Shown in pieces: positions 1 through 64,000 of a stretch of DNA of 64,000 bases. The notes below the pieces were generated by a model, which saw nothing but the letters and a program-made list of their open reading frames with translations, ran no database searches and was not told the DNA's origin. The stretch comes from Narthecium ossifragum (lineage: Eukaryota > Streptophyta > Magnoliopsida > Dioscoreales > Nartheciaceae): positions 23,702,145 through 23,766,144 of the forward strand of contig OY986971.1 of assembly GCA_963920575.1 (NCBI GenBank). Direction: 5' to 3'. A program made the position numbers and the translations under genes. Position 1 is the first letter of the stretch, and each line of letters opens with the position of its first letter.

Positions 1-2
1 TT

Positions 3-10051: not shown

Positions 10052-10270
10052 GCTGTATTGCGTCTCGCTATAGACGGTAAATTTAGCGTTTGGTGGGAGG
10101 CAACCCATCCGTTCTTCGTATTTTTGATGATTGTGTGTTTGTCATTTCTTCCTTTTATGATTGATTGTTTTTCCAATTATTTGCATGTTTGATTTTGGTG
10201 TGTTTTTGAATTGACCTTTGTTTGAATAATTGTGATGTCGAGATGGTATGTTGAATGGGTATGATGATCG

Positions 10271-10966
10271 TTGAATTGTTTGGATCAGAGTGTGTCTTCT
10301 GTGGTATTTTATCGCCTAAAGATCCTAGAATTCAGGCATGGGGAGTGTGGAGCAAGTTCCCAGGTTTTCAGCCCTATTATACATTTTTGTATGACAAAGA
10401 TCGTTCTTCCGAGCGGTGAAGATCGATCCTTTTCCTCCGATTGTATAGAAGCTGAAGCTTGGGTTTGCATGATTGACATGGAACCGGGTATTAGACATAA
10501 GAAATCCATTCTCATCATACTTGGACGACCTTTCTTGGCTACGACCAATGCATGCATCAATTGTAGGAGTGGCATCATGACTGTTACGTTCGAGAATATG
10601 GAGTTGAAATTAAATATTTTTGATGCTACTAAACAATCTATGCATGGGAATGAATGTTTCATGGTCGATTCGTTAGTAGATGATGATATTGTTGATGAAT
10701 GTGCAAATGATGTGATGGTTGCGAATTTTGATATGGATGATGCTTGTGAATCATTTGTTGATGTTTGTGATGACTCTTTATCGAGTGGCGATGATGTTTT
10801 GAATTTTGATGATTTGCCGATTGTTGAAGAGGATTTTTCGGGTTTACGTGATGAAGTGTTGACTTTTGATGATTTTCCGATGGTTTTTAATACGTTGCAA
10901 GATGCGGATTTACCCACTTCGGATTTACTCGATGAATTTGAACATACTTATGCCATGGCCTTTTGA
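10271..10966 (+). pseudogene. Chimeric junction ORF with protease remnant, third array junction
   Basis: This is the same chimera as at the other two junctions, crossing the boundary 10476/10477, with an identical translation. In the last unit the equivalent frame (from 14169) runs instead into unique DNA and stops at 14390. That shows the first part is ordinary post-pol spacer. Confidence 0.7.
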
Positions 10967-11120
10967 AAAACTTCTTTTGAGCCATTGCCACCTATATCCT
11001 CCACACCGGCACCCCCATCTTTGATTAAGCCTCCAACCTTAGAGTTGAAACCCTTGCCATCCAATTTGAAATGAGTATCTTGGGCCGAATTGCTCCCTCC
11101 CGGTAATCATCTCGTCATCC

Positions 11121-13949
11121 TTGACTCTTGCACAAGAGGGGAAACTCATTAAGGTGCTCACCAAACACAAGAGGGCCATTGGGTGGTCCGTTGCCGATCT
11201 CAAGGGGATAGACCCATCTATATGCATGCACCGCATACATTTAGAAGATAAGTCTAAGAGTGTCATAGAGTTTCAACGTCGATTGAATCCAAACATGAGA
11301 GAAGTTGTGTTGAAAGAGGTTTTTAAACTCCTTGAGGCGGGAGTCATTTTCCCTATCTCGGACTCCAAATGGGTGAGCCCAATCCAAGTAGTGCCCAAGA
11401 AATCGGGCATTACCGTGATTAAGAATGAGAGGGGAGAAAGTATCGCTACTCGCCAAACTACGGGATGGCGAGTGTGTATAGATTACCGGAAGTTGAACTC
11501 ATTCACTAGAAAGGATCATTTTCCACTTCCATTCATTGACCAAATCTTGGAAAGACTTGCCGGGCAAAGCTTCTATTGTTTCCTTGATGGCTACTCCGGA
11601 TATAACCAAGTGGCTATTGACCCTAAGGACCAAGAGAAAAAGACATTTACTTGTCCTTTTGGTACTTTCGCCTACCGTCGTATGCCCTTTGGTCTTTGTA
11701 ATGCACCGGCAACGTTTCAACGTTGCATGTTAGCTATCTTTGGAGACATGATCGAACACTTTCTAGAGATCTTTATGGATGATTTTTCAGTCTTTGGCCA
11801 ATCTTTTGACTCTTGCCTTGAGAATCTTATCAAAGTCTTAGCTAGGTGTGAGGAAACAAACCTAGTCTTGAGTTGGGAGAAGAGCCATTTTATGGTAAAT
11901 GAGGGGATTGTGTTGGGCCATGTTGTTTCAAGTAGGGGGATCGAAGTTGATAAGGTCAAACTTGAGCTCATCTCTAAACTTCCTCCTCCATCATCGGTTC
12001 GACAAATCCGATCTTTTCTTGGGCATGCGGGTTTCTATCGTCGCTTCATCAAGGATTTTAGCAAAATCTCTCGCCCCCTTTGTGCTTTACTTGCTAAAGA
12101 CGTTCCTTTCAACTTTGATGATCCTTGCATGCATGCCTATACTACTCTTCGAGAGGCCTTGTCTTCCGCACCCATTGTGCACGCACCCGATTATTCACTT
12201 CCGTTCGAAATCATGTGTGATGCCTCGGATTATGCCGTAGGAGCTGTTTTGGGTCAACGAATTGACAAACTCCCTCACGTCATATGCTACGCCAGCAAAA
12301 CCTTGAATGATGCTCAAGTCAATTACACGACTACCGAGAAAGAGTTGCTAGCGGTAGTCTTTTCTTTGGAGAAATTTCGATCCTACCTCCTTGGTTCCAA
12401 AATCATTATCTTCACCGATCATGCCGCTTTGCGGTATTTGTTTTCCAAGAAGGATGCCAAGCCATGCTTACTTCGATGGATCTTGCTTCTCCAAGAGTTC
12501 TATCTTGAATTTAAGGATAAAAAAGGCTCCTCTAATGTTGTAGTGGATCATCTTTCTAGGCTATCATCCGAGCACATCTTAGACTCTATTCCGATCAATG
12601 AGTTATTCCCAGATGAGCATCTTTTGGCCATTGATCAATTTCCCAAGCCGTGGTTTGCTCATATTGTCAATTATCTCACCACCGGGCAAATTCCACTCTT
12701 TTGGCCCAAAAATGATCGAAACAAATTCTTCTCACATATCAATAACTATTTTTGGCATGATTCATATTTGCTCAAACGAAGCTCGGACCAATTGTTGAAA
12801 AGGTGTGTTCCCGAATCGGAAGTTACGTCCATCCTCACTCATTGTCATTCTCATCCTTGTGGTGGACATTTCTCCGATAGGAAGATCGCCGCAAAGATCT
12901 TTGAATGCGGTTTTTATTGGCCTACCATATTCCGTGATTCTCATAATTTTGCCAAAGCTTGCCTCCGGTGTCAACAAGTTGGCACAATTTCTAGACGCAA
13001 TGAAATGCCCCAAACTCCCATTCTTGTTTGTGAAGTTTTCGATGTGTGGGGTATTGATTTCATGGGGCCATTCCCTCAATCAAATGGCTACTTATACATT
13101 TTGGTAGGGGTAAATTATGTTTCCAAATGGGTGGAGGCAATCGGCACAAAAACCAATGATCATAATGTCGTGTTAAAATTCTTGCATGCCAATATTTTCA
13201 CTCGTTTTGGTTTCCCGAGGACCATCATAAGCGATGGTGGCCCTCACTTCTCCAACCGGCATTTTAAATCTCTATGTGAAAAATATGGAATTACACTTAA
13301 GGTAGCCACGCCTTACCATCCTCAAACTAGTGGCCAAGTTGAGGTATCCAATCGCGAGATCAAGCGGATTTTAGAAAAAGTTGTGAGAATTGATCGGAGG
13401 GATTGGGCATTTAAGCTCAATGACGCATTGTGGGCCTATCGAACGGCCTACAAGACGCCAATTGGGATGTCGCCATTCCGATTGGTCTTTGGAAAACCTT
13501 GCCATCTTCCGGTAGAGATTCAACATAAAGCGTTTTGGGCAATTCAAGCTCTCAATTGGGACGCTAATGATATTTCAAGCAATAGGAAACTCCAACTTCA
13601 TGAGCTTGAAGAAATTCGAAATGAGGCTTACGAGAATACCAAAATCTACAAGGCTCGGACTAAAGTTTTTCATGATAAGCTCATAGTTCGGAAAACCTTT
13701 GATGTTGGCGATAAGGTTTGGCTCTACAATTCACGTCTTCGACTTTTCCCGGGCAAACTTAAAACTAGGTGGGATGGTCCATTTGATGTCACTAAGGTTT
13801 TCACCCATGGAGCTGTTGAGGTGCAAAATCCTTTCTCAGGGGCTACATTCACTGTCAATGGCCAACGTTTGAAACCTTATATTCATAGTTTCCCTCTTGA
13901 CATCACTCTTGAGCCAACAGTGATGTTGGCGGAACCATACGATACTTGA
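11121..13949 (+). CDS. pol: Athila pol, last array copy, joined to the native 3' end
   Basis: This is a 942-codon open frame with intact RT FMDD, RNase H, integrase HHCC and D-D35-E, and the same translation as the first full copy. It is the copy that continues into the element's own downstream sequence (spacer, envelope-like ORF, 3' LTR), so it sits at the original right-hand position. Its spacer carries the few base changes (13975, 14053-14054) that set it apart from the other units. Confidence 0.92.
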
Positions 13950-14389
13950 GCTGTATTGCGTCTCGCTATAGACGATAAATTTAGCGTTTGGTGGGAGGCA
14001 ACCCATCCGTTCTTCGTATTTTTGATGATTGTGTGTTTGTCATTTCTTCCTTGCATGATTGATTGTTTTTCCAATTATTTGCATGTTTGATTTTGGTGTG
14101 TTTTTGAATTGACCTTTGTTTGAATAATTGTGATGTCGAGATGGTATGTTGAATGGGTATGATGATCGTTGAATTGTTTGGATCAGAGTGTGTCTTCTGT
14201 GGTATTTTATCGCCTAAAGATCCTAGAATTCAGGCATGGGGAGTGTGGAGCAAGTTCCCAGGTTTTCAGCCCTATTATACATTTTTGTATGACAAAGATC
14301 GTTCTTCCGAGCGGTGAAGATCGATCCTTTTCCTCCGATTGTATAGAAGCTGAAGCTTGGGTTTGCATGATTGATCCTTGCATCACCTA

Positions 14390-37829: not shown

Positions 37830-39521
37830 TGTCACACTTCGACCCAGAAAACCCATTTGATCCAGGACGTGGGGTTCTTAATCTATTCAATCCATATGTG
37901 GTGCATTTATAATAAAATAAAACATCTAAATTAACAATTGATAAGGAGTTATAATTTAAAATCTTTAAGATAAGACAAAATTATCACACAAACTGATCCT
38001 CAAAAGAACATATATTTAAATACCTCAAAAATTTCTTACAGAAGGAAATTATGCATTTAAATAATCTAACTAGATAACTGAACCTCAAGTCCTCGAACAC
38101 CTCTACAGATCGACGCACCTCAAAGAGCCTTTCCAGCGGGAGCTATGGAAGAAGAGCTGGCGCCTACACCTACCAACGCAACCTGGGTAGGAGTGAGCGA
38201 TAAGTTCAGTAGGATTCTATATTATGACACTCACAAGGAAAGAGGACTACAACTGTGCCATCTCTCTGTACTAAGACCAAGGCGTAGCTACACTACACAA
38301 GCATGCAACCACGGTGAGGATCACGCCGGCTCTAGGCGTCCTCGAAGTGCGACCACTACAGCTAACAACAACCGCCCAAGGAGTAACAGAAAAGTAAACC
38401 AGCTTAACCTTGGCGTAAAAGAAACATTACGACCTCTAAACCTCAAGCATGCAAAGCTGATAACAACAATCTCACCCTACACCTTACTACTCAGCCATGG
38501 TCCTAAGACTAGATCCGAATTACCCGAGAGCCTCGGATCGGCGATTGACCCATCGCCCACGCCCTAACCTTTATGCATCTAATGCAATCAGATGCATGCA
38601 ATGCTCATGCACAAATATAAGTATAAGCATGCAACATGATGCCAAATAATATACAAGGCTAGGCGTAGCATAAAGCTTGCCAAAGGGTAAGCATAACAAG
38701 GGTCTAAGGAAAAGCATATAAATAGGCATGCATGCCTACTAACGGGATATAACCCCGGCTAACATTTAACAACTAGCAGTTATAATAATAATTAAAGAGT
38801 CGGGCACCTTTCAGTCCACTATTCTACACATCCCAAGGGTTTGACTCCATTGGTTCAACCACAAGCCTCACACAGGGCTGGGCCACACAAGGCCAAGACA
38901 TATATAATAACATATGTATGTATATCAATATTGAAAGCTCGAATTATCGAAAGGGTGCGGCTATCCGCACCACAATTTGGACTCACCGCACCACATCTAC
39001 TTAACACAGTTTTCATACCCAAAACACCCATTGATTGAATGTCCAAAATAACATTCCAAAACACAATACACCACAAAACCTAATTTACCTTAACAAATTA
39101 TTTCTCAATACACCACAACACCACATCTTCTCCTACATCTAGCCATCATTTTCACCACTTTCTACAAGCCCTAAAACTCCTCAAACCACCTCCTCCAAGC
39201 CCTAACCATCTCCTCCAATCCCTAGGTCTTCAACTTACTCACTCCCCCTCCATCCTAGATAGTTCTTCCCTACCCTCATCATATTCTATCTTCTTTCTTA
39301 TCCTCCCAACACATTCACATTATACTCCCAACCATCTCCTCCAAGCTGTAGGTCTTCAACTCACACAAGCCCTCCCCATTATACATTGTCAATTCAAGGT
39401 GTGTTTGGTCGAAATGGATGGAAAAGACGAATGCTGGAGAGAAAGGAGATGAGAAAAGGCCCTAAAAAATGTACATTTCCTCTTCTCTTATTTTTTTTTG
39501 TCCTTCTCGGATCGCGTTTTG

Positions 39522-39720
39522 ATCGGTAGTCTCAGACCGACAGAAAACGTCAACGTATCGGTATGTGTCCACCGATACTTTGGCTTTATGTACCGGTAAC
39601 ATGGTACCGATCGATTAGTACGCTATGTATACCGGTACGTATCCACTGAAACTATAGCGTTATATACCGGTAAAATGGTACCGAATAATACGTTTCGTAT
39701 ACCGGTATCATGGTACCGAT
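39522..39720. repeat. Left array of the ATCGGTA-N6-TACCGAT dyad (6 copies)
   Basis: Twenty-base dyads start at 39522, 39557, 39592, 39631, 39666 and 39701, so the steps are 35, 35, 39, 35 and 35 bp. Left arms are ATCGGTA or ACCGGTA, right arms TACCGAT or close variants, and the spacer is always six bases. The array lies between the left subterminal region and the transposase gene. Confidence 0.85.
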
Positions 39721-39996
39721 GTGAACACAGTGTTGGCTACCTGCCTTACTAACTCTTTGCTTACATTCAGTAGCATGTTTCTACTGATGCGAGCGGTGTA
39801 GGAGCTATAAATACTCACGACTACACCCGGGAATTCACGACCAATACGGTATGTTGTTTAATCGCTATATCTTGCCGGACGACAACTAGGTTTAAAGTTC
39901 ATTAACATAATTCTTATTGTTTGATTAACATAATTCTTATTGTTTGATTATAAATATTTCAAAGTCGACAAGCACTTGTCCAATGGGTATAGACAG

Positions 39997-42545
39997 TTGG
40001 GAGGCAGAATGGGTTGGTGATTGTGACAAAGAATTCAGAGGATTGGGGGTGTGGTAGAAAGCCGAGGATTACCTTGGCATGTGAGCGTAGTGGAGAGTAT
40101 CGAAAAACTATGAAGAAAGATGATAGCGGGAAGAAAAAATTTGCCAATCGAAGGAAAAAATCCGTCGACTCCGGGACGAAGAAGTGTGGATGTCCTTTCA
40201 AGCTTCAGGGTGTGAAGCTTGTATCTGATGATGATTGGATGCTCAGAGTTATTTGTGGAGTCCACAATCACCCCCATGCGGATCACCTCGAGGGTCACTC
40301 GTTCGCCGGAAGATTATCTGTTGAACAAAATGATATGGTAGTTACGATGTCAGCAAACCTAGTGAAGCCACAGTAAATCCTGAACACTATAAAGCAACAA
40401 GATCCTGAAAACGTATCCACCATGAAGACCATCTACAATGTACGCCAAAGGAATAGGGTGATTGAAAAGGCTGGGAGATCAGAGATGCAGCAACAATTGA
40501 AGCATCTAAATGAGTTTGGATACGTTGAGTATCATACGGTTCGAGAAGACACAGACGTTGTGAGGGACGTATTATGGGCACACCCTGTGTCTATTGATTT
40601 AGTCCGTGCATTTCCCGAGGTGTTGATTATGGATTGCACCTACAAGACCAATAGATACCGACTTACACTGCTAGAGATTGTTGACGTCACGTCGACGAGT
40701 ATGACATTCGCTGTAGCTTTTGCCTACATAGAGTGTGAGAAGGAGGACATGTATAAATGCGCTTTGAAAATATTAAGGACATTGCTGGAAGGATGCCCAA
40801 TGCCACGCGTTGTGGTGACAGACCGAAAAGTGGCTTTGATGAACGCTATCAGCTCGGTCTTTTCGGAGTCCAAAAGCATGCTATGTAGATGGCATATCCA
40901 AAAGAACGTTGAACTCAGCTGCAAACACATTTTCAAAACTGCAAATAAAGCCGACTTGTTCATGACAATGTGGAAATTGGTTGTAACTGCATCTACCGAG
41001 GAGGAGTACAAGAAACACTTGGAGACACTAGAGACATCTTTTTGCGGTTACCCAGCATCTTCTAAATATGTTCGGGAATCGTGGCTGGATGGCTTCAAAG
41101 AACTGTTCGTTAGTGCTTGGACTGACGAATATATGCATTTTGACAATCACACTACAAACAGGGTAGAGAGTGCATATGCCAAGTTAAAGAGGCATCTCGG
41201 GGAATCCAGCTGCAGTTTTGACACATCGTGGGCTACCATTCACTCCCAGCTTGAGCTGCAACACTGTGAGATCAAAGCCTCCTTCGAGAAGAGCAAATAC
41301 ATTATGCAACACAGTTTCAAGCCTGCCATCTTCAAAGAGCTGCGAGGCTTCATTTCAAAGAGTGCACTTTTAATAGTTCAAAAAGAATCAGAGAGAGCCA
41401 ATGAGATCGGTGCGGATAAGTTCGCATGTGGTTGTACAGTCCGACGCACACATGGCTTGCCATGTGCCCATGAGATCACCAACTACAAGCTTCATTGCCG
41501 CCCCATACCCTTAGAATGCATACATCACCATTGGCGGAAACTTGACTTGTCGGCTACACCAGCCAATGAAATCCCAAAACTCAAGTGCCAAAATACGCTA
41601 GAATGCTTAGAAAACGCATTTCTAGCTCAGAATGAGGCAGGAAGAATGCATATGCTGAGGAAAATGTATGAGCTAGCAGAACCGCAGTCTAGTTACGTTC
41701 TTGAACCAGAGGTGAAGTTGAGGACCCGCGATCGACCAAGCGCTAAGGAGAAGTTGATGCTCTCAACACGACGCGACCCATCCGCCTTTGAGTATGCACC
41801 TTCGTTCAAGGACAGTAACTCACTAGAAAAAACACCTCTACATATTAGTCCCATATCTTGCATGAAACCAGAGAAGCCTGATATAGTCAAAAAAAGGTGG
41901 CCAAAGGAGAGAGTGATAAGGGCTCGGACAGCCGCTCCGCTGGGCTATCTTGGCCAGTTTCCAGAAGGGTTGACAAAATATATTAAGCATGTTAAGGATG
42001 TTGTATCAGATGATAACTGCGGCTTTAGAGCTATAGTCGGGCTATTGGGCTACGGCGAGGACAACTGGTCTCAAGTGAGGAACGATCTTATCAATGAGTT
42101 GCGTGATCACTTCGAGGGCTACCTTAAGTTGTATGGGGATGAAAAGCGTGTTCACGAGCTTATGTACTCATTGTCGTTTCTCGAAAACAACCCTCTACCC
42201 GATCGGTGGATGACCATGCCGGACATGGGTTATCTTATTGCATCACGATACTCGGTTGTCCTACTTCACATCTCCAGAAGACAATGCATGACCTTATTGC
42301 CACTTTGGACAGCAGCTCCCCCGAAACCGGCACGGAGGATCATCGCAATCGGGTTCGTAAACGGAAATCACTTTGTTCAACTACACATGCAGCTTGGATG
42401 TCCAATGCCACCAGTAGTCAGCAGCCGAGCTCGATATCGAGATGCTTGTGCCATTGGATGGGATTCCTATAATGATGAGATAGAAAAATTTGGGTTAATC
42501 GTGCCATCAGATGTTGCTACAACGGACACTATGGACCTTGAATGA
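39997..42545 (+). pseudogene. MULE transposase with FAR1, MULE, SWIM and OTU-like domains, one nonsense codon
   Basis: One frame runs from a splice acceptor near 39996 to 42545, interrupted only by TAA at 40374-40376. Before the stop is a FAR1-type DNA-binding domain with KCGCPFKL and a CGVHNHPH ending. After it come the MULE core with DCTY (first Asp), VVVTDRKVALMNAI (second Asp) and NRVESAYAKLK (Glu). Next is a SWIM finger CGC...PCAHEI near codon 335 of the second part. Last is an OTU-like cysteine peptidase region with DDNCGFRAI (Cys about 533) and GNHFVQLH (His about 650). The 5' exon(s) and start codon were not identified. The stop could come from CAA to TAA. All catalytic residues otherwise look present. 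Confidence 0.85.
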
Positions 42546-42633
42546 AAATTTGGATATTAATATATTGTATGATTTTGAATATTAATATCTTGTATGGTTG
42601 TAAACATTGTGTTGCAAAGGGTTTCTTCAAAAA

Positions 42634-43081
42634 CTGTTTTTTATCAAGTATGGTTCTATCGGTACCAAAGTACTGATAACAACCCAGACAAATATCAGTA
42701 CCATACAATCGAATATATATCCCAATATATCGGTAATTGAAGACCGATACAAAGCCAATCAAGTTAAACGTACAACGATTCAGTACTAACACTTTCGAAT
42801 AGTGAAACATTTTATCGGTATGATACTACCGATAAAACGCAGCTTACTTCTACTTTTGATTCCATGTGCTATCGGTATTAAAGTACCGATATAATGCTTC
42901 ACTTTTTGGAAGAGTGAGTACCGAAACAGTGTTTGTTTTACTTGATTGACTTTGTATCAGTATTTAAGTACCGATAAGTTGTGGTATATATTCGGTAGTA
43001 TGGTACCGATATTTTCTGGGTTGGTATCGGTACTTGGGTACCGATAGAGTACCGATAGAACCATACCTGATAAAAAAACAG
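42634..43081. repeat. Middle dyad array, bracketed by a 32-bp inverted repeat
   Basis: Dyads start at 42658, 42694, 42729, 42814, 42871, 42956, 42991 and 43026, with degenerate ones at about 42779 and 42906. Steps are mostly 35 bp, with some of 50 or 57. The array lies between the converging 3' ends of the two genes. An inverted repeat beginning CTGTTTTTTATCA (42634-42665) and its complement (43049-43081), with one indel and one mismatch, closes it at both sides. Confidence 0.8.
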
Positions 43082-43239
43082 AGTATTTGGGAGGGAGGTT
43101 TAATTCTACCAATCCTGTAGAAATTGCAATGCATTGGAAACACGTCCATACATTCGAAACACGTTCATACATTGGAAACACATTCATACTTTGAAATCAC
43201 ATTCATGACGATCAATATACATGCTATTCTTTGGTTCGT

Positions 43240-45256
43240 TGTCTAGATCTTCTCTCGTAGGTGCGCTCCGTGTCAGTCTCACCGCGGGCTATTCTTTGCG
43301 CCCGCGCCTACCTACTCCTATGGTCGTCGATGGTCAGGGTATCCAAGTGCGCCATGGTGTCGTCGATGATCGTGACAATCCGATCATACTGAATTTCAAG
43401 AATTCGAAGCAAATTAGACATAATATTACGTGCTAGTATTTCATTTCCATTTAGAATTTCTAAAAGTTACCTTCGCCGGTAGATAATCATCTGCATGTTC
43501 AGCCTGGAAAGTCCTCCGCTCTGGGTTTATGACTTTTACATGAGATATGGATCGATACCAGTCATAATACTCATCCACGCAGTCATACCCACGGATAGCA
43601 TACTCACATGTTCGACATAGAGCAGTGCAGTGGCTTGGCCAATCAGCCCAGAACCGCGGCTCGTAGTGGAAGGCCCTCTTGTACCCCCGGGCAGTCTCCT
43701 TGGCTCCCATGTGGAAGTGGGTTGGCCTTAGTGGGGCGGCGGGAATGGTCTGTATGATCTCGAATTGCCGAAGCACCCGATCAGGATGGTATGGCTCGAC
43801 GTGCTCCCCGCCGCTTATGGTGCCGAGGAAAAGCCTAATATCGTCAAGAGGGAAGGGGCCTCCTCTATGTCTGACGTATGGGTCCCACACAACCTGCAAC
43901 CATACTCATACTAAGGGAATCAATATTTGATCACTACTGAATAGATTACAAAATTCAACTCGAAGTCAAACACAGATTACAACTCACCTGATGTCTACTC
44001 ATGGAATCAATCTCTGCGCGCCATTGAAGCAGAGCCATTTCCGGATCCTGACCTGGATCTTTGTGATCCAGCCTTGCAAGAGCAATCGGCTTGTCAACCG
44101 TGTATTCTGGGTCGGGCTGTGGCTTTATAATTACCGGGAGGCGATTATATATCCATGCTTGCATTGATTAAAAAAATGTGGGTCAGTCACAATTATTGGT
44201 ATTATATCACAAAGCAGATGTTTTAAAAGTACGTACCTCCGCCAGAGTCAAGTATCCGCCAATTGCCCTTGTCCCCCATCGACTGGTAGAGCCAAGCATG
44301 CGAGAGAGGTAGACGAGGCTGGCGGCACCCCACACATACTCACGCACGGTATCCAAGTTCGTGAGGGCAGAAAGGCAGGATACGTGAACCTTCGACTCCG
44401 ACTTGTCACAAAAAGGGTGCAACCCAGCAGATTCATGATATATGTCTTGACAGAGCACTCCAGGCCGACCTTACGGAGAGTGCACTCTCTCTTCAGCCAG
44501 GTCATACTGACTGACAACCCTCTCCCATCCAACTGGCTCGCGGCCTCTGATTCATTGACTCCCAAATTAACCTTCATAAACGCTTTCAGCTAGGAGACTT
44601 TCAGCTTGCACTCTTCAAGCGGCCTACCGGCGACGGGGATGCCCAGTATATGGCTCACGTCACCCAAAGTGATCGTCATCTCTCCACAGGGCAGGTAGAA
44701 CGTGTTGGTCTCCGGGTGCCACCTCTCGACGAACGCCGACACTAGGGCACTGCTGATAGTCCTGTAAGAACACTCCGTCAGATTTGCTAGACCGGTGACC
44801 TCCACGGCATTCTTAAATTCTTGCCTTTCGATGCCGTCCCATTTCATAGTGGACAACCCATGCGCATAAATTTTTAGTGGGCCACGCTCCTGCGTTGAGA
44901 AGAAGGGGAAAAGTGAGCAGACTTTGATATAAACACTACATGATATAAAAAAAAACTCAACCTTTTTTTACCTCTCCAACCCATATCTGATATGCCACGT
45001 GTGTTTTGAACTCCGTCAAAACCGACCGGTCAACATGCCCATCAGGGATGGGTGCCTCGTCGTCAGACACCTCTTCCTCTTTACCAGGGCCAACAACCAT
45101 CAATGCACCCTCTGGGATCTCCTCTGGAATCTCCTTAGGTACCGCTCTCCTCCTCCTAGCTGAGGCCGTCGGTCGGTCACCGCGGGCCGATGAAGATGTC
45201 GAGGCCGCCGAAGATGACGAGGCTCCGGCGGGTGCTTTTCCCCTTAAACGAACCAT
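43240..45256 (-). pseudogene. Plant mobile domain (PMD/MAIN-like) protein gene of the MULE, disrupted
   Basis: Exon 1 is 45256-44972 (95 aa: basic Ser/Ala-rich start, then an acidic segment). Exon 2 starts at 44889 with the mobile-domain hallmark MTITLGDVSHILGIPVAGRPL. The frame meets TAG at 44590-44592, resumes, then needs a one-base shift near 44412 to continue as ALTNLDTVREYVWGAA to a donor at about 44238. Further exons are about 44159-43988 (NRLPVIIKPQ) and 43899-43460 (VWDPYVRHRGG, YHPDRVLRQF). A short last exon may follow near 43400-43240. PMD proteins are found in Ty3 and Mutator elements. The host versions MAIN/MAIL1 act in silencing and gene expression. Two lesions make this copy inactive. 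Confidence 0.75.
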
Positions 45257-45297
45257 TTAACTGTTTTGAAAAAGAAATGCAAAGATTAGTAGAGAGT

Positions 45298-45541
45298 TTC
45301 GGTATCTATATACCGGCAATTAAGTGTTATTAACGGTACCTAAGTACCGATAATAAAGCATACATATCAGTAGTAAGTTACAGATAGTGTAGAATAGATA
45401 TCAGTACCTTGATACCGAACAAGCTCTTTTCCATGCAGCAACAAACGTATTGATCGGTACCTATGTACCGATAGATAATCCTATCATATCGGTGAATACG
45501 TACCGATAGGATAGTGAATCATTTGGTTATCTTGTACCGAT
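45298..45541. repeat. Right dyad array upstream of the plant-mobile-domain gene
   Basis: Dyads start at 45298, 45332, 45366, 45400, 45453 and 45488, plus a half-conserved one at 45522. Steps are 34-35 bp apart from one of 53. The arms vary (AACGGTA, ATCAGTA, TACAGAT) but the 7-6-7 layout is kept. The array begins about 40 bases upstream of the ATG of the minus-strand gene. Confidence 0.85.
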
Positions 45542-46545
45542 TGATATGTATAAAACTGAAAGGTCGAAACTCATTGGAAAAATTTGAAAATCTTGAAAAA
45601 AAACGCAATCGGAGAACAATGCTGCAAAACCAATGCTATATATGCAAAAACAATACAAAGGCAATGCATTTCATGCAACAAGAAATGAAAAACTCACTTG
45701 TTGTGAAATCTCACTCGACGGAGGCGTGGACAGCTCGCCGGCGAGGCTCTGTCGCGAGTGTAGGGAGGCTGGCAACGTTCGGGAGAGGGTGTTGGGAAGG
45801 TGGAGGGAGATGCTCGGGAGAGTGGAGAGAGGGAGAGGGTTCGGTAGAAGAGGGAGGGAGGAAGTCTCGGTAGAAGAGGGGGAAGAAGGTAGGGGGTGGA
45901 GTGGGGTGAGGGGTAGTGTAGGTATTTTGGGTTTTGTTTGGGGTGGAGTGGGGGTGTTAGTGTGGTGTGGGGTTTTGAGGGTAGTTTAGATAAGCAGATT
46001 TATTTGTGTGGTGTGTTGAGTAAAAACTGGGGTTTTCAAACTTTGGCTGTGGTGTGTTGAGTAAATGTGGTGCGATGAGTCCAAATTGTGGTGCGGATAG
46101 CCGCACCCTTATCGAAATCAAACCAATGGTACTACTAACTTCGGAAAATCCTAACTTTCAATTTAGCCATCCGATTGATATGAAACTTGATATGCTCACT
46201 CAAGGGCATACCTCGAATCACATAACCATCAATTGGATCAATCGGATAAAAGCAAATTGATGAAAACCTATAATTTCGGTTAAATCTCAGATTTTATAAA
46301 CCAATCAAAATCCCTTTGAAAATAACTCAGATTGAAACCAAACTTTTTAGATCGCTCCCAAAGATCACTATGATCATCATGTCAAAAAAATCAAATCAAT
46401 TGGTCAACGAAAAACCATTTAATTTCACACATTAAGATGACTGCCCTGTTCCAGCACAGTCAGGCCATTTAATTCACTAAAAATCATACATAAATCCGAA
46501 AATCATGAAACTAGTTGTAATTAAAAACTAACTCAGAGATATACA

Positions 46546-48884
46546 TGTGAGGACCTGCCCCTCTACCCATGTGGCTCGTTGTAGACCGCAAGAGCAATTT
46601 GGTAAATTGTGCCTTGTTGGTTTGTTTCACACCCGCGTGTGCACACACTGGCCTTGTATGTGTTAGTGTTTGTTTAGAATGGCTAGGTGGACCCGGGATC
46701 GAAAGATCCGAACTTGGGCTTGAGTTCTTGCCCAAGTTTAGCTTTCAGCACACAAAGGATCGATCTTCCATTGAGGAAGGATCGATCATTCATAAGTCGG
46801 TTGATTTTCTGCTTCGCGAGGACGGCCGCCGTTGGCCGTCGCTCTCTTTTGTCAGAGGTGGAGGACTTTCCCTCCCCTCCCCTCACTTTTTCCCCTCTTT
46901 CCCGGCTGTCCCCTCCCCCTTTCCCCTCCTTTCTTCCCCTCATCTTCCTCCTTCTCCTCTCTTTCTTCTTCCTTCCTTCTTCTCTCCCGAAGCTCTGTTT
47001 TTCCCCTGTTTCGGGCAGCCACCTTCCTCACCTCCGTTCTCCCTCCTCCGACCATCAAATTGGGTGTTCTTTGGCTCGTTGGATTCCTGACAACGAGAGG
47101 AAGATCCCTGAAGTGGTTTGGAGGCTTGTTGGTGATCAAATCGCGGGGAATCAGCCGAGGAAAGCGCAGCTAGGTAGGGTTATACCTACTGTGTTCTTTT
47201 CGGGTGTTCTTGAGATCTAGCCGTTGGATCTTGTTGATCCTTGTTTTGTTGGTTTCCTTATATCTTGTAGAATAACTGATTTAAGTTTCATGTTAATCAG
47301 TTGAGATTTGATTAGGTTTTATGGATGATTAGTCTCGGATTTCTGGTTTTCTGCTGTTCTTGAGAAACAGCCGGCTTGCGGCGAGTTTTCTGGCCGGCAA
47401 GTACATAATCTTGGCTTTTCATAAACATGAGAGTTGTAGATCTATTCGTTATTTTTCCATTCCATCTTGTTTCATATTTTTCCGATTTATGTACGATTTC
47501 TTATGAATTGTTTGCTGGAGGGCTGCGTTGCAGCAATTAATGGGTAAGTTAGTTTGATTGACGATTTTGATTAGCGTTTTTCCGTTAATCCAACCGTTGG
47601 ATGATTATGATTTTTGGATATGATGATTCTGGTTTATACACCTACTGGTGGCTAAGTTGGTTCTTGAATCCGATGTCGTTTGGACGTCGGATCGACGGGA
47701 TCAATTAGCCCCTAAGTAGAGGCTTGGGTGTTTTGTTGAATATAATATTATATTTCGAAATATAATATTATATTGCGTTTTATTCATCATCGGTTTTCGG
47801 GGTTGCTTCCCGTTGCAGGAGTCTGCGGTCGACGGTCGTGGTACCGTCGTAATGCCGGGACCCGCTGCGGATTGGCTGGCAGCGGTCGGTGGTACCGCTG
47901 CAGCGATCCGGTTGACTTATATGATGTTTGTCATACTGTTGCATGCCTATCTCCTGTTTGTGTATGTCATAGCATGCATTGTTGTTGTGTGCATTAGTTG
48001 CATTGGTTAGGGCGTGGGTGATCTTTGGGTCGCCGTCCCGAGGCTGGAAGCTCGGACTTAGCCCTAGGACCGGGGTTGGGTAGTTTGGACCCGGTTTGAA
48101 TTGTGGTGTCCAGTCAACTTAATGATAGGCTTAGATGACTGGTACACTGTTGTGTTTGATGTTTAGAGGTCGTGTCGGCCTCGAGCCAAATCGAGGTGTA
48201 GCCGGTACCCAGTCCTTCTAAAACTCTTGGGTGGCAGGTGTGACTACCCAGCGGTGCTATCCGCCAACAGTGCTCAGGATCCTGTTGTGAGTGGCAGTGC
48301 CGTGTCCTGCCTTACTGAGTGTGACCCAGTGTGTGACCAGTTAGCTGGAAGATCATGACTGGGGCTCTCAGGGGTATCCGGTGGGGTTATGGGACCCCTG
48401 TATACACCCAGGTCCTACTTGAGGGCGACACTGTTGTGTTTCCCTCTTCCTTCTGTGTGTCGTAGTGTAGATCCCTACTGAGCTTAGTGCTCACACCTAC
48501 CCGGGCTGCGTTTTGCAGGTGCAGGCGTCAGTTCTTCTTCCTTGGCCCCTACCGGGCAGTTGGTTGGCGGTGCGGCGGCGCCAGGTGGAGTCTGAGAGGT
48601 GGTGATCATTTACTGCTTTTACCCTTATGTTAGTTAGTCTCCTACGGGAGTAATGTTGTACTTTGAATCTTCCCCCTCTCCGAGGATATGTATATTAACA
48701 CTTGAGTTTTTAATCTGAGGTTCGAGGTTTTGCTAATTAATATTGTTTTAATTGAGGGTGCTTTGGTGAACTGTTAGGGAGACCAATAGGTTAGAGGGAA
48801 CCCTCGCCAGCTTTTCTTCCGTGTTTGTAGGTTCCGGTTCGCGTCGCCCGGCCCGGTTGGGCTTTCGCAGGTCGGGGCGCGACA
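46546..48884 (+). repeat. 5' LTR of the outer Tekay element (2339 bp)
   Basis: It begins TGTGAGGACCTG and ends GCGCGACA, directly before the primer site. It matches the start of the 3' LTR at 63256 closely. Near its 5' end are two GATCGATC sites (about 46759 and 46788). A perfect 36-bp AT-rich palindrome lies at 47739-47774. A pyrimidine-rich CT tract runs from about 46870 to 47000. Confidence 0.9.
47739..47774. repeat. Perfect 36-bp AT-rich palindrome in the outer 5' LTR
   Basis: An 18-base arm reading AATATAATATTATATTTC is followed at once by its exact reverse complement, centred on CG at 47756/47757. It could extrude a cruciform or, in RNA, form a hairpin. Confidence 0.9.
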
Positions 48885-52829: not shown

Positions 52830-55356
52830 TGTGAGGGCCCGTCCCTCAGACCTGACTCGACCACGTGGGTCGAGAGCCGGTTTCATGTTGGTTTGGTTCC
52901 GCGTCGGGCACGATCGGGCGATCGTGTGGCGGTTTGGACCCCAGGGGCATTTTGGTAAATATGCCCCCTGGTGGTCGGTTTCACACCCGCGTTGCACCCA
53001 CGGCCTTGGTTTGATGTATGTGATTGTTTAGAATGGTTAGGTGGGTCTGGGATCGGAAGATCCCAGCTCGGGCGCGCTAGAGCTCGCTATCGGGCTCGTA
53101 AGCGGGCTTTCGACCCGTTAGAGGACCCGGCCCATTAGAGGGCCTGGTGAGTGGAGGGTGGTTGGAGCAGTTGGCTCCAACCCCCTACCCGATCCCCTCT
53201 CTTCTCTCCTCTCTTCTCTCCTTCCCTTCTTCCCTTCCTTGGCTGGTTCTTCCTTCTCTTCTCCACCGACAGCCCCTCTTCCTCTCCCTTCTCCCCTTCT
53301 CCTCCGGCTGGGCTAAAGCTTGGAGGACTGAGCTTGAGTAGCGGATCTTTGCGGCGAGGTTGGCTGGACGCGTGGAGAGCTTCGTTGCTGTTGAGGTAGG
53401 TGTTTCTACCTCGATCCTTGGATCGGGTTCTACTAGGTTAGGATGTTTATGGTTGTGCTGTGAATGCCATGTTAGAATGCTTGTGGTTCTTGGTGTGCAA
53501 TGTAGGTCATTCCTTGTATTCTTACTTTGCAAATTCTGGTATTGCAACGGTTCGTTTTCCGTATTTTCGAAGTTTCGTCGGTTTTGGTTTTCCGACCTAG
53601 AATGGGATTTAACCGTCCAAATATGGATTTCTTTGCATCCTTAGATCCCTCACTTCAAAATACACTTGCTTGCAAAGTTTGATTGTATTCTAACATGTTT
53701 TGATCCTTCAAATCTTAGAAAATGGATTTCCGGAATACTGCGTTTTGAGCTCGACGGTCGATCGGTGCATCGACCGTCAGGCTCGACGGTCGATCGATGT
53801 ATCGACCGTCCAGCTTTAGTACGTTTGCTTTGGGCCTGACGGTCGACCGTCGCATCGACCGTCGGGCTCTGTTGAGATTTTGGGTTCCCAGGGTCGATGG
53901 ATCGATCGACCGTGGGACCTTAGCTTCATCGCCATTTACCTGACGGTCGACCGTCGGATCGACCGTCGCATCGACCGTCAGGCTCTGGTTGGTTTTGGGC
54001 TGTTCAGGGTCGATGGTTGGATCGACCGTCGCCCTTGATTTTCTTCGCGTGGGCCTCACGGTCGATCCACGGATCGACCGTGGCATCGTCCGTGGCCCCA
54101 CGGTCGATGCACGGATCGACCGTGACCCTTTGAACAGTGTTCTTTGATTCTTCTTGAATGGCTTTCAACTTTGATTGAGTCTTAAACGTGTTGGGAGGTT
54201 TATAGATGGATTTAACGAGGTTTTCAAGGGGTTTTCCCTCGGGTTTGAGAATCGATTCAGGTGACTTCCTTTTTGGTAAATATATGGCTTTACTTGCATT
54301 TAAATACTTGTATGATTGTAATTAAATGCCTGGTTGTTTGCTTAACCATTAGCTAGCTATGAGTGCTAGCTAATGAGGAATTGTGGAACCTTAGCCTCTT
54401 GCCGGCGAGTGCCGAGGTCTATTGTATATTTGTTGAACTTATAACTGTTGACGTGACATATAGAGACATCTAGGGTAGATGTTTGCTTAAGCTCATGCAT
54501 TGTATGCATTAGAAGCATTTGAGGTTAGGCGGGCGATGTTTTAGGTCGCCGATCTGAGGCTCTCGGGTAGCTCGGATCTAGCCTTAGGACCGTGGATGGG
54601 TAGTCAGGATTAGGGTGTGATTGTTGATCTGAATCTTTGGTGATTGAGGATTGCGTTAGTCGGCTTGAATCTTTGTTTAAGGTTTAGAGGTCGTGTTGTC
54701 TTCCTAGGCCAAGTGCTAGGGATGCAACCGAGGAGTTCCCGACGTGGTCCCCAGGCAGTGGTATCCCTGCTGGGTAAGGGCTAGAGCCTGCATGTTACTG
54801 TTTCCGTGGTCCTCCTGGTAACATGTTCAGGAGAGAGGTTTCATGACAGGAACCCTTGAGACATCGGTGGGTTATGGGACCCGTGGCATCCTTTAGACTT
54901 AGGCTGGGGGACAACACTGTTGTTGTTTTCCTCCCTTCAGTGTGCCGTAGAGTAGAACCCTACTGGGCTTTTTGCTCATTCCTACCCGGGCTGCGTTTGC
55001 AGGTGCAGGCGGCGGTCCTTCTTCGGTGGAGCCGACTGGTTCAGCTTTTGGCGGCGCAGGTACATCCAGAGGCGTCTGAGGTTTTGTTGGAGGATGTAAC
55101 TGTTGTAACTTTTTGAATATATAATTATGCATGTTGTACCCTCTTTGGAGAACCTTTGAGATGTTGTATAAGTATGTATTTTGAAACTCGGACATTGTAA
55201 GACTTGATGTTATATTATGATCAAATCTGCTTAGCCTCTTGATTACTTTTGATTAAATTGTTTATCCTTTCCGCTTGTACTGCGCCGGTTGATGATGAAT
55301 AGTGTTAGGACCCTCACGCCCCGTCCTGGATGGGTTTTCTGGGTCGGGGTGTGACA
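52830..55356 (+). repeat. 5' LTR of the inner Tekay element (2527 bp)
   Basis: It begins TGTGAGGGCCC and ends GGTGTGACA. It includes a dense array of the inverted motif ACGGTCGAT/ATCGACCGT at 53752-54122, a CT-rich tract at 53205-53300, and no open gene. It is nearly identical to the 3' copy. Confidence 0.95.
53752..54122. repeat. ACGGTCGAT / ATCGACCGT inverted-motif array in the inner 5' LTR
   Basis: About twenty half-sites alternate in both orientations, often as GACGGTCGATC followed within a few bases by GATCGACCGTC, so many can pair into short hairpins. The sister array in the 3' LTR (61266-61665) is 24 bp longer owing to two extra 12-bp units. Confidence 0.85.
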
Positions 55357-58500: not shown

Positions 58501-60347
58501 AGAGTTTGAGGCACGTGTTTACCCAGCGTGACCTCAACCTCAGGCAGCGGCGGTGGATGGAGCTTCTAGAGGACTACGACTTCGAGTTACATTACCACCC
58601 TGGTAAGGCAAACGTCGTAGCAGACGCTCTCAGCAGGCGGACCAGAGACAGCAGAGTGACCTTGGCAGCAGTGTCAGCTCGGCAGTGGCAGATGCTGGAG
58701 ACAGTCAGTCAGTTTGGGCTTGACTTTGAGGACCGGGCGACAGGTGGTTTCCTGTATGCTGTTCGCAGCATTCCAGTTCTTTTGGCCAGAGTGATCGAGG
58801 CACAGACTGGAGACCCAGAGCTCGTGGAGACCCATGTTGCGGTCGGCACTGAGCACGCGGTTGAGGGCTGGACAGTGTCGGCAGACGGTGGTCTACTCTT
58901 TAGAGGCAGAGTTGCAGTTCCAGCAGACCCGGCGTTGCGAGAGGAGATTCTTCATGAGTTCCACCACTCCTGCTTCGCCGTTCACCCCGGGAGCACCAAG
59001 ATGTACCACGACCTACGCCGACAGTTCTGGTGGTGCGGGATGAAAAGGTCAGTAGCTGAGTTTGTTTCCAGATGCCTCACCTGTCAGAAGGTGAAGGCAG
59101 AGCACAGACGGACCCCAGGTTTGTTGCAGCCACTTCCCGTGCCAGAGTGGAAGTGGGAGCATATAGCTATGGACTTCGTCACCGGGCTACCCAGGACACC
59201 GAGGGGGAATGATGCGATTTGGGTCATTGTCGATCGACTGACCAAATCGGCTCATTTCCTTCCCATGAGGACGACGGATCCAGTTGCCAGACTGAGCCAG
59301 AGGTACATTGACGAGGTAGTACGACTGCACGGCATCCCAGTGTCGATAGTGTCAGACAGAGATCCCAGATTCACCGGCAGGTTCTGGAGCAGCTTCCAGG
59401 ATTCCTTGGGGACAGCACTGACGTTCAGCACAGCTTTCCACCCTCAGACAGACGGGCAGTCAGAGCGGACTATCCAGATCTTGGAGGACATGCTCAGAGC
59501 ATGTGTGCTAGATGCTGGAGGTACTTGGGAGCAGCACGTGACTTTGGTGGAGTTTGCCTACAACAACAGTTTCCAGGCCAGTTTGGGTTTTGCACCCTTC
59601 GAGGCGTTGTACGGCAGACCGTGTCGCTCACCGGTGTGTTGGACAGAGGTTGGGGAGGCGTCTCTTACCGGTCCAGACATCATCAGGCAGTTGTCAGAGA
59701 GGTTGGCACAGATCAGGCAGAGGCTTCTGACAGCACAGAGCAGGCAGAAGAGCTACGCAGACCGCAGGCGACGACCCCTGGAGTTCGCAGTTGGCGACAG
59801 AGTGCTACTGAAGGTGTCCCCGCGCAGAGGGTCGATCAGGTTTGGTAGCAGGGGCAAGCTAGCACCGAGGTTCACTGGTCCATTTGAGATCATCGGACGC
59901 GTTGGAGCAGTCGCCTACCAGTTGGCTCTACCTCCGCACATGTCAGCAGTCCATCCCACCTTCCACGTTTCTATGCTGCGGAAGTACGTTCCAGATCCTT
60001 CTCACGTGATCAGACACGACGACCTTGAGGTAGAGGAGGACGCCACCTACATAGAGCAGCCAGTGCAGATCTTAGACAGACGTGATCAGGTGCTCAGAGG
60101 CAGATCTTTACCGTTGGTCATGGTCAGGTGGAGACACGGCAGTGCAGAGAGTCTGACTTGGGAGCGAGAGGATCGCATGCGTCGGGAGTTTCCCCGACTG
60201 TTCACCTCTTCAGGTAGTTCCTTGTTGCGGGTGTTGGCACCCCTAGCTGTAGCCTTGTTTGTGCATGTAGGCTTAGTTGTTTCTTTTTCCCCTGGCTTCC
60301 ACCTTGAATTTCGGGACGAAATTCTTTTTAAGGTGTTTAGGTTGTGA
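55560..60347 (+). CDS. gag-pol: Gag-pol polyprotein of the inner Tekay chromovirus, intact
   Basis: This is a single frame of 1595 aa from the ATG at 55560. The frame is open back to 55479 but without an ATG, and MPG... mirrors the outer element's MSG start. Domains: gag with RLNPPRFSG (about 75-200), CCHC knuckle at 329, aspartic protease [10 protein letters not shown] (Asp436), RT FVDD (770-771), RNase H CDAS (Asp917), integrase HHCC from His1132, catalytic D1205, D1266 and E1302 (D-35-E spacing), then a chromodomain at about 1490-1555 ([16 protein letters not shown]). Every catalytic residue is in place. The TGA stop at 60345 lies in the first bases of the 3' LTR. It is probably competent for transposition unless silenced. 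Confidence 0.95.
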
Positions 60348-62893
60348 GGGCCCGTCCCTCAGACCTGACTCGACCACGTGGGTCGAGAGCCGGTTTCCTG
60401 TTGGTTTGGTTCCGCGTCGGGCACGATCGGGCGATCGTGTGGCGGTTTGGACCCCAAGGGCATTTTGGTAAATATGCCCCCTGGTGGTCGGTTTCACACC
60501 CGCGTTGCACCCACGGCCTTGGTTTGATGTATGTGATTGTTTAGAATGGTTAGGTGGGTCTGGGATCGGAAGATCCCAGCTCGGGCGCGCTAGAGCTCGC
60601 TATCGGGCTCGTAAGCGGGCTTTCGACCCGTTAGAGGACCCGGCCCATTAGAGGGCCTGGTGAGTGGAGGGTGGTTGGAGCAGTTGGCTCCAACCCCCTA
60701 CCCGATCCCCTCTCTTCTCTCCTCTCTTCTCTCCTTCCCTTCTTCCCTTCCTTGGCTGGTTCTTCCTTCTCTTCTCCACCGACAGCCCCTCTTCCTCTCC
60801 CTTCTCCCCTTCTCCTCCGGCTGGGCTAAAGCTTGGAGGACTGAGCTTGAGTAGCGGATCTTTGCGGCGAGGTTGGCTGGACGCGTGGAGAGCTTCGTTG
60901 CTGTTGAGGTAGGTGTTTCTACCTCGATCCTTGGATCGGGTTCTACTAGGTTAGGATGTTTATGGTTGTGCTGTGAATGCCATGTTAGAATGCTTGTGGT
61001 TCTTGGTGTGCAATGTAGGTCATTCCTTGTATTCTTACTTTGCAAATTCTGGTATTGCAACGGTTCGTTTTCCGTATTTTCGAAGTTTCGTCGGTTTTGG
61101 TTTTCTGACCTAGAATGGGATTTAACCGTCCAAATATGGATTTCTTTGCATCCTTAGATCCCTCACTTCAAAATACACTTGCTTGCAAAGTTTGATTGTA
61201 TTCTAACATGTTTTGATCCTTCAAATCTTAGAAAATGGATTTCCGGAATACTGCGTTTTGAGCTCGACGGTCGATCGGTGCATCGACCGTCAGGTTCGAC
61301 GGTCGATCGATGTATCGACCGTCCAGCTTTAGTATGTTTGCTTTGGGCCTGACGGTCGACTGTCGGATCGACCGTCGCATCGATCGTCGGGCTCTGTTGA
61401 GATTTTGGGTTCCCAGGGTCGATGGATCGATCGACCGTGGGACCTTAGCTTCATCGCCATTTACCTGACGGTCGACCGTCGGATCGACCGTCGCATCGAC
61501 CGTCAGGCTCTGGTTGGTTTTGGGCTGTTCAGGGTCGATGGTTGGATCGACCGTCGCCCTTGATTTTCTTCGCGTGGGCCTCACGGTCGATCCACGGATC
61601 GACCGTGGCATCGTCCGTGGCCCCACGGTCGATGCACGGATCGACCGTGGCATCGTCCGTGACCCTTTGAACAGTGTTCTTTGATTCTTCTTGAATGGCT
61701 TTTAACTTTGATTGAGTCTTAAACGTGTTGGGAGGTTTATAGATGGATTTAACGAGGTTTTCAAGGGGTTTTCCCTCGGGTTTGAGAATCGATTCAGGTG
61801 ACTTCCTTTTTGGTAAATATATGGCTTTACTTGCATTTAAATACTTGTATGATTGTAATTAAATGCCTGGTTGTTTGCTTAACCATTAGCTAGCTATGAG
61901 TGCTAGCTAATGAGGAATTGTGGAACCTTAGCCTCTTGCCGGCGAGTGCCGAGGGCTATTGTATATTTGTTGAACTTATAACTGTTGACGTGACATATAG
62001 AGACATCTAGGGTAGATGTTTGCTTAAGCTCATGCATTGTATGCATTAGAAGCATTTGAGGTTAGGCGGGCGATGTTTTAGGTCGCCGATCTGAGGCTCT
62101 CGGGTAGCTCGGATCTAGCCTTAGGACCGTGGATGGGTAGTCAGGATTAGGGTGTGATTGTTGATCTGAATCTTTGGTGATTGAGGATTGCGTTAGTCGG
62201 CTTGAATCTTTGTTTAAGGTTTAGAGGTCGTGTTGTCTTCCTAGGCCAAGTGCTAGGGATGCAACCGAGGAGTTCCCGACGTGGTCCCCAGACAGTGGTA
62301 TCCCTGCTGGGTAAGGGCTAGAGCCTGCATGTTACTGTTTCCGTGGTCCTCCTGGTAACATGTTCAGGAGAGAGGTTTCATGACAGGAACCCTTGGGACA
62401 TCGGTGGGTTATGGGACCCGTGGCATCCTTTAGACTTAGGCTGGGGGACAACACTGTTGTTGTTTTCCTCCCTTCAGTGTGCCGTAGAGTAGAACCCTAC
62501 TGGGCTTTTTGCTCATTCCTACCCGGGCTGCGTTTGCAGGTGCAGGCGGCGGTCCTTCTTCGGTGGAGCCGACTGGTTCAGCTTTTGGTGGCGCAGGTAC
62601 ATCCAGAGGCGTCTGAGGTTTTGTTGGAGGATGTAACTGTTGTAACTTTTTGAATATATAATTATGCATGTTGTACCCTCTTTGGAGAACCTTTGAGATG
62701 TTGTATAAGTATGTATTTTGAAACTCGGACATTGTAAGACTTGATGTTATATTATGATCAAATCTGCTTAGCCTCTGGATTACTTTTGATTAAATTGTTT
62801 ATCCTTTCCGCTTGTACTGCGCCGGTTGATGATGAATAGTGTTAGGACCCTCACGCCCCGTCCTGGATGGGTTTTCTAGGTCGGGGTGTGACA
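60343..62893 (+). repeat. 3' LTR of the inner Tekay element (2551 bp)
   Basis: This is a near-identical copy of the 5' LTR, starting after GGTGTTTAGGT. It is 24 bp longer, both differences being 12-bp units within the ACGGTCGAT array (near 61363 and 61648). Confidence 0.95.
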
Positions 62894-63255
62894 TGTGCAC
62901 CCGACTTTTCATGTGTCGATGCTGAGGAAGTATCACCCAGACCCGTCTCATGTCATCAGGGTGGATGACATTGAGCTTGAGGCAGACGTGAGTTTTGTTG
63001 AGCAGCCGGTTCAGGTACTTGACCGAAGGGATCAGGTCTTGCGGGGCAAGACGATTCCCTTGGTCAAGGTACTGTGGAGGCACAGAGGCACCGAGGAGGT
63101 CACTTGGGAGCGCGAGGCGCGCATGCGGCAGGAGTTTCCGCAGTTGTTTTTTTCTCCAGGTACTTCTTGTCCTGTCCTCTAGTGTAGCTGTTTTGTTGTT
63201 CCGAGCCCTACCCTTATCGAATCTCGGGACGAGATTTCCTTTAAGGGTATTAGGA
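62894..63255 (+). pseudogene. pol: Outer Tekay integrase end and chromodomain, separated by the inner insertion
   Basis: The frame resumes as [18 protein letters not shown] and includes a chromodomain (LVKVLWRHRGTEEVTWEREA), ending at TAG 63180-63182. The following CGGGACGAGATT...TTAAGGGTATTAGGA contains the polypurine tract just before the 3' LTR. This half is undamaged in itself. Confidence 0.85.
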
Positions 63256-64000
63256 TGTGAGGACCTGCCCCTCTACCCCTGTGGCTCGTTGTAGACCGCA
63301 AGGGCAATTTGGTAAATTGTGCCTTGTTGGTTTGTTTCACACCCGCGTGTGCACACACTGGCCTTGTATGTGTTAGCGTTTGTTTAGAATGGCTAGGTGG
63401 ACCCGGGATCGAAAGATCCGGACTTGGGCTTGAGTTCTTGCCCAAGTTTAGCTTTCAGCACACAAAGGATCGATCCTCTTCGTGCCAGAAAGCCTTGTGA
63501 ATCATCGTGAAGGATCGATCCTCCCTTGAGGAAGGATCGATCATTCGTAAGTCGGTTGGTTTTCTGCTTCGCGAGGACGGCCGCCGTTGGCCGTCGCTCT
63601 CTCTTGTCAGAGGGGGAGGACTTTCCCTCCCCTCCCCTCACTTTTTCCCCTCTTTCCCGGCTGTCCCCTCCCCCTTTCCCCTCCTTTCTTCCCCTCCTCT
63701 TCCTCCTTCTCCTCTCTTTCTTCTTCTCCTCTCTTTCTTCTTCCTTCCTTCTTCTCTCTCGAAGCTCTGTTTTTCCCCTGTTTCGGGCAGCCACCTTCTT
63801 CACCTCCTTTCTCCCTCCTCCGACCATCAAATTGGGTGTTCTTTGGCTCGTTGGATTCGTGACAACGAGAGGAAGATCCCTGAAGTGGTTTGGAGGCTTG
63901 TTGGTGATCAACTCGCGGGGAATCAGCCGAGGAAAGCGCAGCTAGATAGGGTTATACCTACTGTGTTCTTTTCGGGTGTTCTTGAGATCTAGCCGTTGGA
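63256..64000 (+). repeat. 3' LTR of the outer Tekay element, cut by window end
   Basis: It starts TGTGAGGACCTG and follows the 5' copy at 46546. It has about 45 extra bases in the GATCGATC region (63468-63545), giving three full GATCGATC sites where the 5' LTR has two. It also has an extra CTTTCTTCTT unit in the CT tract near 63715. Confidence 0.92.

Follow-up and report, generated by a model that had tools for sequence, protein, structure and literature searches.

The locus described here raises the question of what reads a 20-bp interrupted palindrome, ATCGGTA-N6-TACCGAT, that recurs in the non-coding parts of a Mutator-like element (MULE) of Narthecium ossifragum. The element lies in a 64,000-nucleotide stretch of contig OY986971.1 (C9:23702145-23766144 of a 379.4 Mb assembly; hereafter the window), and encodes a transposase and, in a convergent gene, a protein with a plant mobile domain (PMD). 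The best joint explanation, to which we give a probability of roughly 55%, is that the dyads are putative sites for a protein that the element itself encodes, likeliest a dimer of the PMD protein, which would act as the anti-silencing VANC proteins of Arabidopsis VANDAL transposons do.

Counting matches to the dyad in its 7-6-7 geometry with up to three mismatches (the threshold used unless stated otherwise), there are 23 in the window, against 1.48 expected and a maximum of 4 in 100 shuffles. Nineteen of these are inside the MULE, four of them exact, close to the 20 or so reported in the initial annotation of this DNA, and they form three arrays at the positions that it gave (Table 1). The remaining four are one three-mismatch site that recurs in a 3.9-kb tandem repeat (299-12012), and no dyad with two or fewer mismatches is found elsewhere in the window. 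The spacer stands alone: a spacer of 6 yields the 19 sites in the element and any other from 0 to 24 yields 0-6, and the core CGGTA-Nk-TACCG (≤1 mismatch) is present 17 times at k=6 and no more than three times at each of the other spacers in the range 0-20, with a mean of 0.16 and a maximum of 2 in block shuffles. In an unbiased count of inverted 5-mers in the element, CGGTA with a spacer of 6 ranks first (10). Other details proposed at the outset hold in part. With two weaker sites included in the three arrays, steps of 34-36 bp account for most of the outer arrays (35, 35, 39, 35 and 35 bp in array 1, and 34, 34, 34, 53, 35 and 34 bp in array 3), but only for part of the middle one (71, 85, 57, 85, 35, 35 and 25 bp). 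The coding stretches, described as free of dyads, have none at this threshold, although three weaker ones (4-5 mismatches) are present at 42410, 45011 and 45172, and the CpG ascribed to each half-site is at the expected place in 32 of 38. A 'same face' helical phasing was considered and dropped, because 33-35 bp does not correspond to an integral number of helical turns.

Related elements in the same genome carry the same arrays. A search with the window transposase gave 67 matches (63 of 1,450 candidates were scored), with lineage A, to which the window copy belongs, at ~89-93% identity to it, lineage B at 81-83% and lineage C at 63-64%. Several A copies have uninterrupted transposase frames, and one (L045) has an intact transposase, a PMD gene with an in-frame stop, and 22 dyads in three arrays. 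Array 2 has from 4 to 13 dyads in fixed stretches of eight A copies, and in one copy consists of 177-bp tandem units with three dyads each. The half-sites are the best conserved part of these arrays: in A copies pooled (array 1 from nine copies, the initial part of array 2 from eight, and array 3 from five of eight, leaving out three without a dyad in the fetched stretch), diversity is 0.056 in half-sites versus 0.101 in spacers and 0.108 in linkers (p 0.003). B keeps two of the three arrays, that upstream of the transposase and that at the gene junction. A C-lineage MULE (L043+L048+L073; C6:22380400-22394000) is ~10.7 kb long, with terminal inverted repeats (TIRs) at 369-411 and 11040-11082 of that interval and two PMD genes on the minus strand. 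It has five arrays: the first is upstream of the transposase, the second is at the junction, the next two lie between the PMD genes, and the last is upstream of the second PMD gene. In a DNA search of its first 7.8 kb against A the coding stretches alone align, yet the dyad core (28 at k=6, ≤3 at other spacers), spacer and step are kept.

There is also a second dyad word. With P0096, a distant homologue, as query (55 scored of 1,639 candidates), three further groups emerged, distinguished by the length of their frames: 876 aa for most of D, 912-972 for most of E, and 920 for F. One copy of each was analyzed in its flanking parts and, for D and E, its PMD part. D and E have TTCGGTT-N6-AACCGAA in the same 7-6-7 geometry, mostly at 33-bp steps, in arrays that lie upstream of each of the two genes, transposase and PMD, and beyond the 3' end of the transposase. 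With at most one mismatch, ATCGGTA dyads number 13 in the window copy, 12 in L045, 9 in B, 11 in C, and 0 in both D and E, and TTCGGTT dyads number 0 in each of the first four, 4 in D and 15 in E. With up to two mismatches allowed, D and E still lack ATCGGTA, and TTCGGTT is found once in L045, not in the window copy, B or C, and 10 and 17 times in D and E, where 100 block shuffles each gave at most 1 and 0, respectively. The D arrays are less regular and their spacers almost entirely T/A; in the unbiased count, TTCGG with a spacer of 10, which is the same register, tops the list in E (11) and shares the top rank in D (4). In PMD exon 2, D and E share 65% identity; comparisons of these two with A/B/C give 46-53%, and those among A, B and C give 51-65%. 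By these sequences dyad class and PMD similarity are consistent. The initial annotation had suggested testing whether dyad and PMD co-vary, and the word does differ between lineages whose PMDs also differ; it had also looked to relatives without a phased motif as the contrary finding, and A, B, C, D and E all have one and F has it in part, with four sites within two mismatches of ATCGGTA downstream (the part examined ends before the second gene). The F transposase (L078 and L079, on C12) matches in pieces, as if with introns.

The PMD proteins are well supported as such (Pfam PMD cutoff 34.9 bits): the pieces in the window score 64.6 and 31.4 bits, above and below it, and those of L045, the C-lineage PMD-b and D score 216, 203 and 241.5 bits, with E 9.5e-64 for the spliced PMD of L045. 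Models of two PMD homologues have a single match in the PDB at E≤0.001, 9lnj, which is VANC21 bound to DNA, and this strengthens both the analogy with VANC and the choice of the PMD protein within the initial interpretation. The arrays are very likely binding sites of an element-encoded protein, and the PMD protein is the likely binder because of its predicted VANC21 fold. Phased dyads beside a PMD gene whose homologues have such a modelled fold suggest a second, palindrome-reading form of a VANC-type system, and since the predicted fold is that of VANC21, the element most likely works like a VANDAL but with a dimeric site; by the same analogy VANC-like anti-silencing is a plausible outcome. 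A PMD dimer would occupy each dyad, with one protomer per ATCGGTA half-site, and several dimers could sit side by side at 33-36 bp steps, coating promoters and gene junctions of the element and either keeping silencing marks off them or removing such marks. Small relatives that are non-autonomous and have the same sites might profit in trans, and a lineage would change its protein along with its site (ATCGGTA in A/B/C, TTCGGTT in D/E), such that a system acts within its own kin.

Small elements with the dyad are indeed common. The exact dyad occurs 4,165 times in the genome and the reversed pattern three times. We fetched 20 loci, representing 21 of 33 hand-grouped clusters among the listed sites and all on C1, and read 11 of the 20. 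The window transposase and PMD pieces have no match in the 20 at E 1e-3, and the DNA of the window element has one, of 68 columns, to array 3. In most of the loci the dyads are within a segment, a few hundred bases long, that the loci share in similar form amid dissimilar surroundings (L019 is the least similar to the rest), and these are mostly short elements with termini other than those of the window MULE; 40 of 104 dyad-to-dyad steps are exactly 35 bp, and 27 bp is next (8). One subfamily (L018 and relatives) is of 312-319 bp and ends mostly in CAGAAATGATTTGTGCAC / GAGTCGTGATTGGTGCAC, unlike the window MULE, and an exact 9-bp target-site duplication (TSD) flanks 13 of the 15 copies with placeable ends (3 of 18 were not placed); because of this TSD the L018-type elements are MULE-type. 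A shared origin of their termini and the MULE TIRs was rejected, the two being dissimilar by eye, and we did not find an autonomous partner for them. The dyad, occurring at loci outside the family of the window element, is thus not private to that family, and equal abundance elsewhere, named at the outset as a finding that would count against the proposal, is partly what these genome-wide counts and sampled loci present. We note that L018 and L025-L042 are abundant short elements composed largely of ATCGGTA dyads, and that spacers such as GTGGGA/TCCCAC recur in L018 and other small-element loci.

The likeness to VANDALs extends to several features. As set out in the parts of PMC5735166 drawn on here, these are MULEs with a transposase and a second protein and with short motifs in non-coding tandem arrays that expand, contract and diverge rapidly; the VANC21 motif is YAGTATTAY, the VANC6 motifs are AGTTGTCC/AGTTGTAC, and the VANC6 motif is also present in an unrelated transposon, AT9TSD1, as the dyad is in other elements here. 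Motifs that differ between related families have a parallel in the two dyad words, and the predicted PMD fold, from the two homologue models, matches the VANC21 crystal structure. The arrays are confined to non-coding DNA here too, with B an exception in that one of its three is missing. The differences are that the second protein is a PMD protein, where VANC, as far as described, has DUF1985 and DUF287, and that the window copy has TIRs of 58 bp and 95% complementarity, where VANDAL TIRs are said to be degenerate in the section of PMC10398659 consulted. Since several of the features that define VANDALs are absent, we do not class the element as one. Capture of PMDs by MULEs has been described in PMC5418596, whose authors, in the portion used here, speculate that a captured PMD serves MULE anti-silencing; those PMDs, in several grasses and Amborella, are fused to the transposase, unlike the separate convergent gene here, of which C has two. 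Among the open-access literature listed, we recognised no paper linking PMD to VANC or describing the dyad, none on plant transposons (by title) with the half-site letters, none with DUF1985 together with 'plant mobile domain', and none on the VANC21 structure.

A number of observations weigh against a PMD protein acting in the manner of VANC. Host PMD proteins, MAIN and MAIL1, promote silencing, an effect of opposite sign. The fold matches are those of homologues, of which P0123 shares 40% identity with the A-lineage PMD, and not of the element's own protein; in sequence the PMD models are 8-13% identical to VANC21, and no PDB sequence is matched by a PMD profile at E≤10. DUF1985 is matched in PMD proteins only below threshold (15.0 and 18.3 bits, cutoff 35.1) and not at E≤1 in the D-lineage PMD, and Pfam lists no DUF287 for the PMD proteins examined. 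The array upstream of the PMD gene is absent from both B copies examined, the array 3 stretch has no dyad in three of eight A copies (at fixed offsets, which leaves the absence uncertain), and in F the 1.1 kb upstream of the transposase is free of arrays. Array 1 alone has no reduction of half-site diversity (0.061 versus 0.051 in linkers). The PMD identity ranges within A/B/C and between the groups overlap, and the lineage comparison amounts to one switch of dyad class, with D and E represented by one copy each. VANC motifs are short (8-9 bases), and that of VANC21 is in one orientation in the account cited (PMC5735166), where the present site is a 20-bp palindrome at 33-36 bp steps. Lastly, the transposase has a FAR1-type domain that presumably diverges along with the PMD, and the change of dyad word therefore does not single out the PMD.

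The last point leads to the strongest competitor, which we consider unlikely: that the transposase binds the dyads through this domain, in promoter regulation, in demethylation as reported for MURA, or in transposition complexes, and that the PMD has a different role. Its FAR1-type N-terminus is present, if sub-threshold in Pfam, the transposase accompanies the arrays as constantly as the PMD does, and dyads are kept in short non-autonomous elements, which depend on a transposase supplied in trans. MURA of MuDR and TnpA of Spm are linked to hypomethylation in the pages of PMC10398659 used here (for MURA, at the TIRs), a likeness in that an element-encoded protein is tied to methylation loss of its own family, and a difference in that the actor there is, for MURA, the transposase and, for TnpA, another Spm protein. 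A joint search of the open-access literature for TnpA and Spm with demethylation and a subterminal location returned nothing. However, the outermost dyads are 569 and 567 bp from the element ends and in C every interval has arrays, even far from the ends, a placement unlike that of end-binding sites, and the VANC21 fold belongs to the PMD models, the FAR1 domain itself being outside the modelled set.

Binding by a host transcription factor, which would give several MULE lineages host-driven promoters, would explain why lineages with different termini and small elements have a dyad in common, but is improbable: D and E have another word in the same genome and the same architecture, which an element-encoded partner fits better. 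The sole host PMD-linked promoter motif seen, the candidate MAIN/MAIL1 'DOWN' motif CATGCAGTTT of the MORC1 promoter (in the text of PMC9899485 consulted), is unlike the dyad, and was rejected as its equivalent for want of a match. It is very improbable that selection acted on the dyads for their ability to form hairpins or cruciforms, or on the arrays because they would yield hairpin siRNA. Array 2 is within a 441-bp imperfect inverted repeat, and in 128 small-element dyads changes on both sides exceed independence (21 versus 12.4 expected, 17 compensatory), but in 107 MULE dyads (≤4 mismatches) they do not (22 versus 19.5, 9 compensatory), where bases and not pairing alone are conserved, and such independence fits half-sites that are read separately. 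That the arrays are passive products of tandem duplication is scarcely credible because they are retained in lineages 63-64% identical in transposase with only coding DNA alignable, and half-sites vary less than linkers in pooled A copies, even though dyad number differs among copies and one has the 177-bp units.

The preferred explanation, binding by the PMD protein, admits a wider version that we hold tentatively, giving it somewhat less than even odds: all PMD proteins, including host MAIN/MAIL, would be relatives of VANC and sequence-specific DNA binders, through which transposons escape silencing and domesticated host copies enforce it, with several MULE lineages running private palindrome-reading versions distinguished at positions 1 and 7 of the 7-6-7 dyad, and small non-autonomous elements exploiting one of these. 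The model of P0227, a protein named MAIN-LIKE 2, has VANC21 as its sole significant PDB fold match, which bears on the mode of action of MAIN/MAIL proteins. Together with lineage-specific arrays in cis beside PMD genes, the VANC21 match offers a candidate biochemical function for PMD and predicts its binding sites, and co-evolution of protein and site could be examined by lineage swap in one genome. If correct, transposon anti-silencing extends beyond Arabidopsis VANDALs and may provide tools for sequence-specific epigenome editing.

The Mutator-like identity assigned at the outset is confirmed by the transposase (Table 1), by the TIRs (38951-39008 and 46053-46110) and by a perfect TSD, TTATCGAAA, at both flanks, a MULE being recognised by TIRs with a TSD of 9-11 bp. 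The window copy is broken, with one in-frame TAA, which terminates the N-terminal transposase frame, and frame changes in the PMD gene, whose open stretches are 44957-45256, 44590-44856, 44207-44458 and 43441-43899. As for the OTU domain that the initial annotation gave the transposase, Pfam reports none for the window transposase body at E≤0.1 or the C transposase at E≤10; homologues P0046 and P0084 carry the source name "OTU domain-containing".

Table 1. Features of the window MULE (window positions) and, in the last row, arrays of the C-lineage MULE (positions within C6:22380400-22394000)
Feature	Position	Strand	Remarks
Target-site duplication TTATCGAAA, left	38944..38952		flanks exact element end
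MULE, A lineage, window copy	38953..46108	+	not intact; TIRs, exact ends, 9-bp TSD
Dyad array 1, upstream of transposase gene	39522..39720		5 dyads (≤3 mismatches) and a weaker one at 39631
Transposase N-terminal part, FAR1-type DNA-binding domain	40014..40376	+	sub-threshold in Pfam, 21.1 bits, cutoff 28.1
MULE transposase body	40422..42545	+	Pfam MULE E 9.2e-22, above cutoff
Large imperfect inverted repeat between convergent genes	42637..43077		441 bp; encloses array 2
Dyad array 2, between 3' ends of both genes	42658..43045		7 dyads
PMD gene, disrupted by frame changes	43441..45256	-	Pfam PMD in two pieces, one above cutoff
Dyad array 3, upstream of PMD gene	45298..45541		7 dyads
Target-site duplication TTATCGAAA, right	46109..46117		flanks exact element end
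C-lineage dyad arrays, five	852-1027, 4346-4518, 6885-7206, 7612-8021, 10315-10493		

The inverted repeat around array 2 is a possible source of hairpin RNA. Elsewhere in the window, positions 1-14374 are a tandem repeat with a 3,898-bp unit in near-identical copies, within which one weak dyad-like site recurs. A 2.55-kb direct duplication (52830-55356 and 60343-62893) is 98.55% identical, and parts of 46545-47228 recur within 63255-64000.
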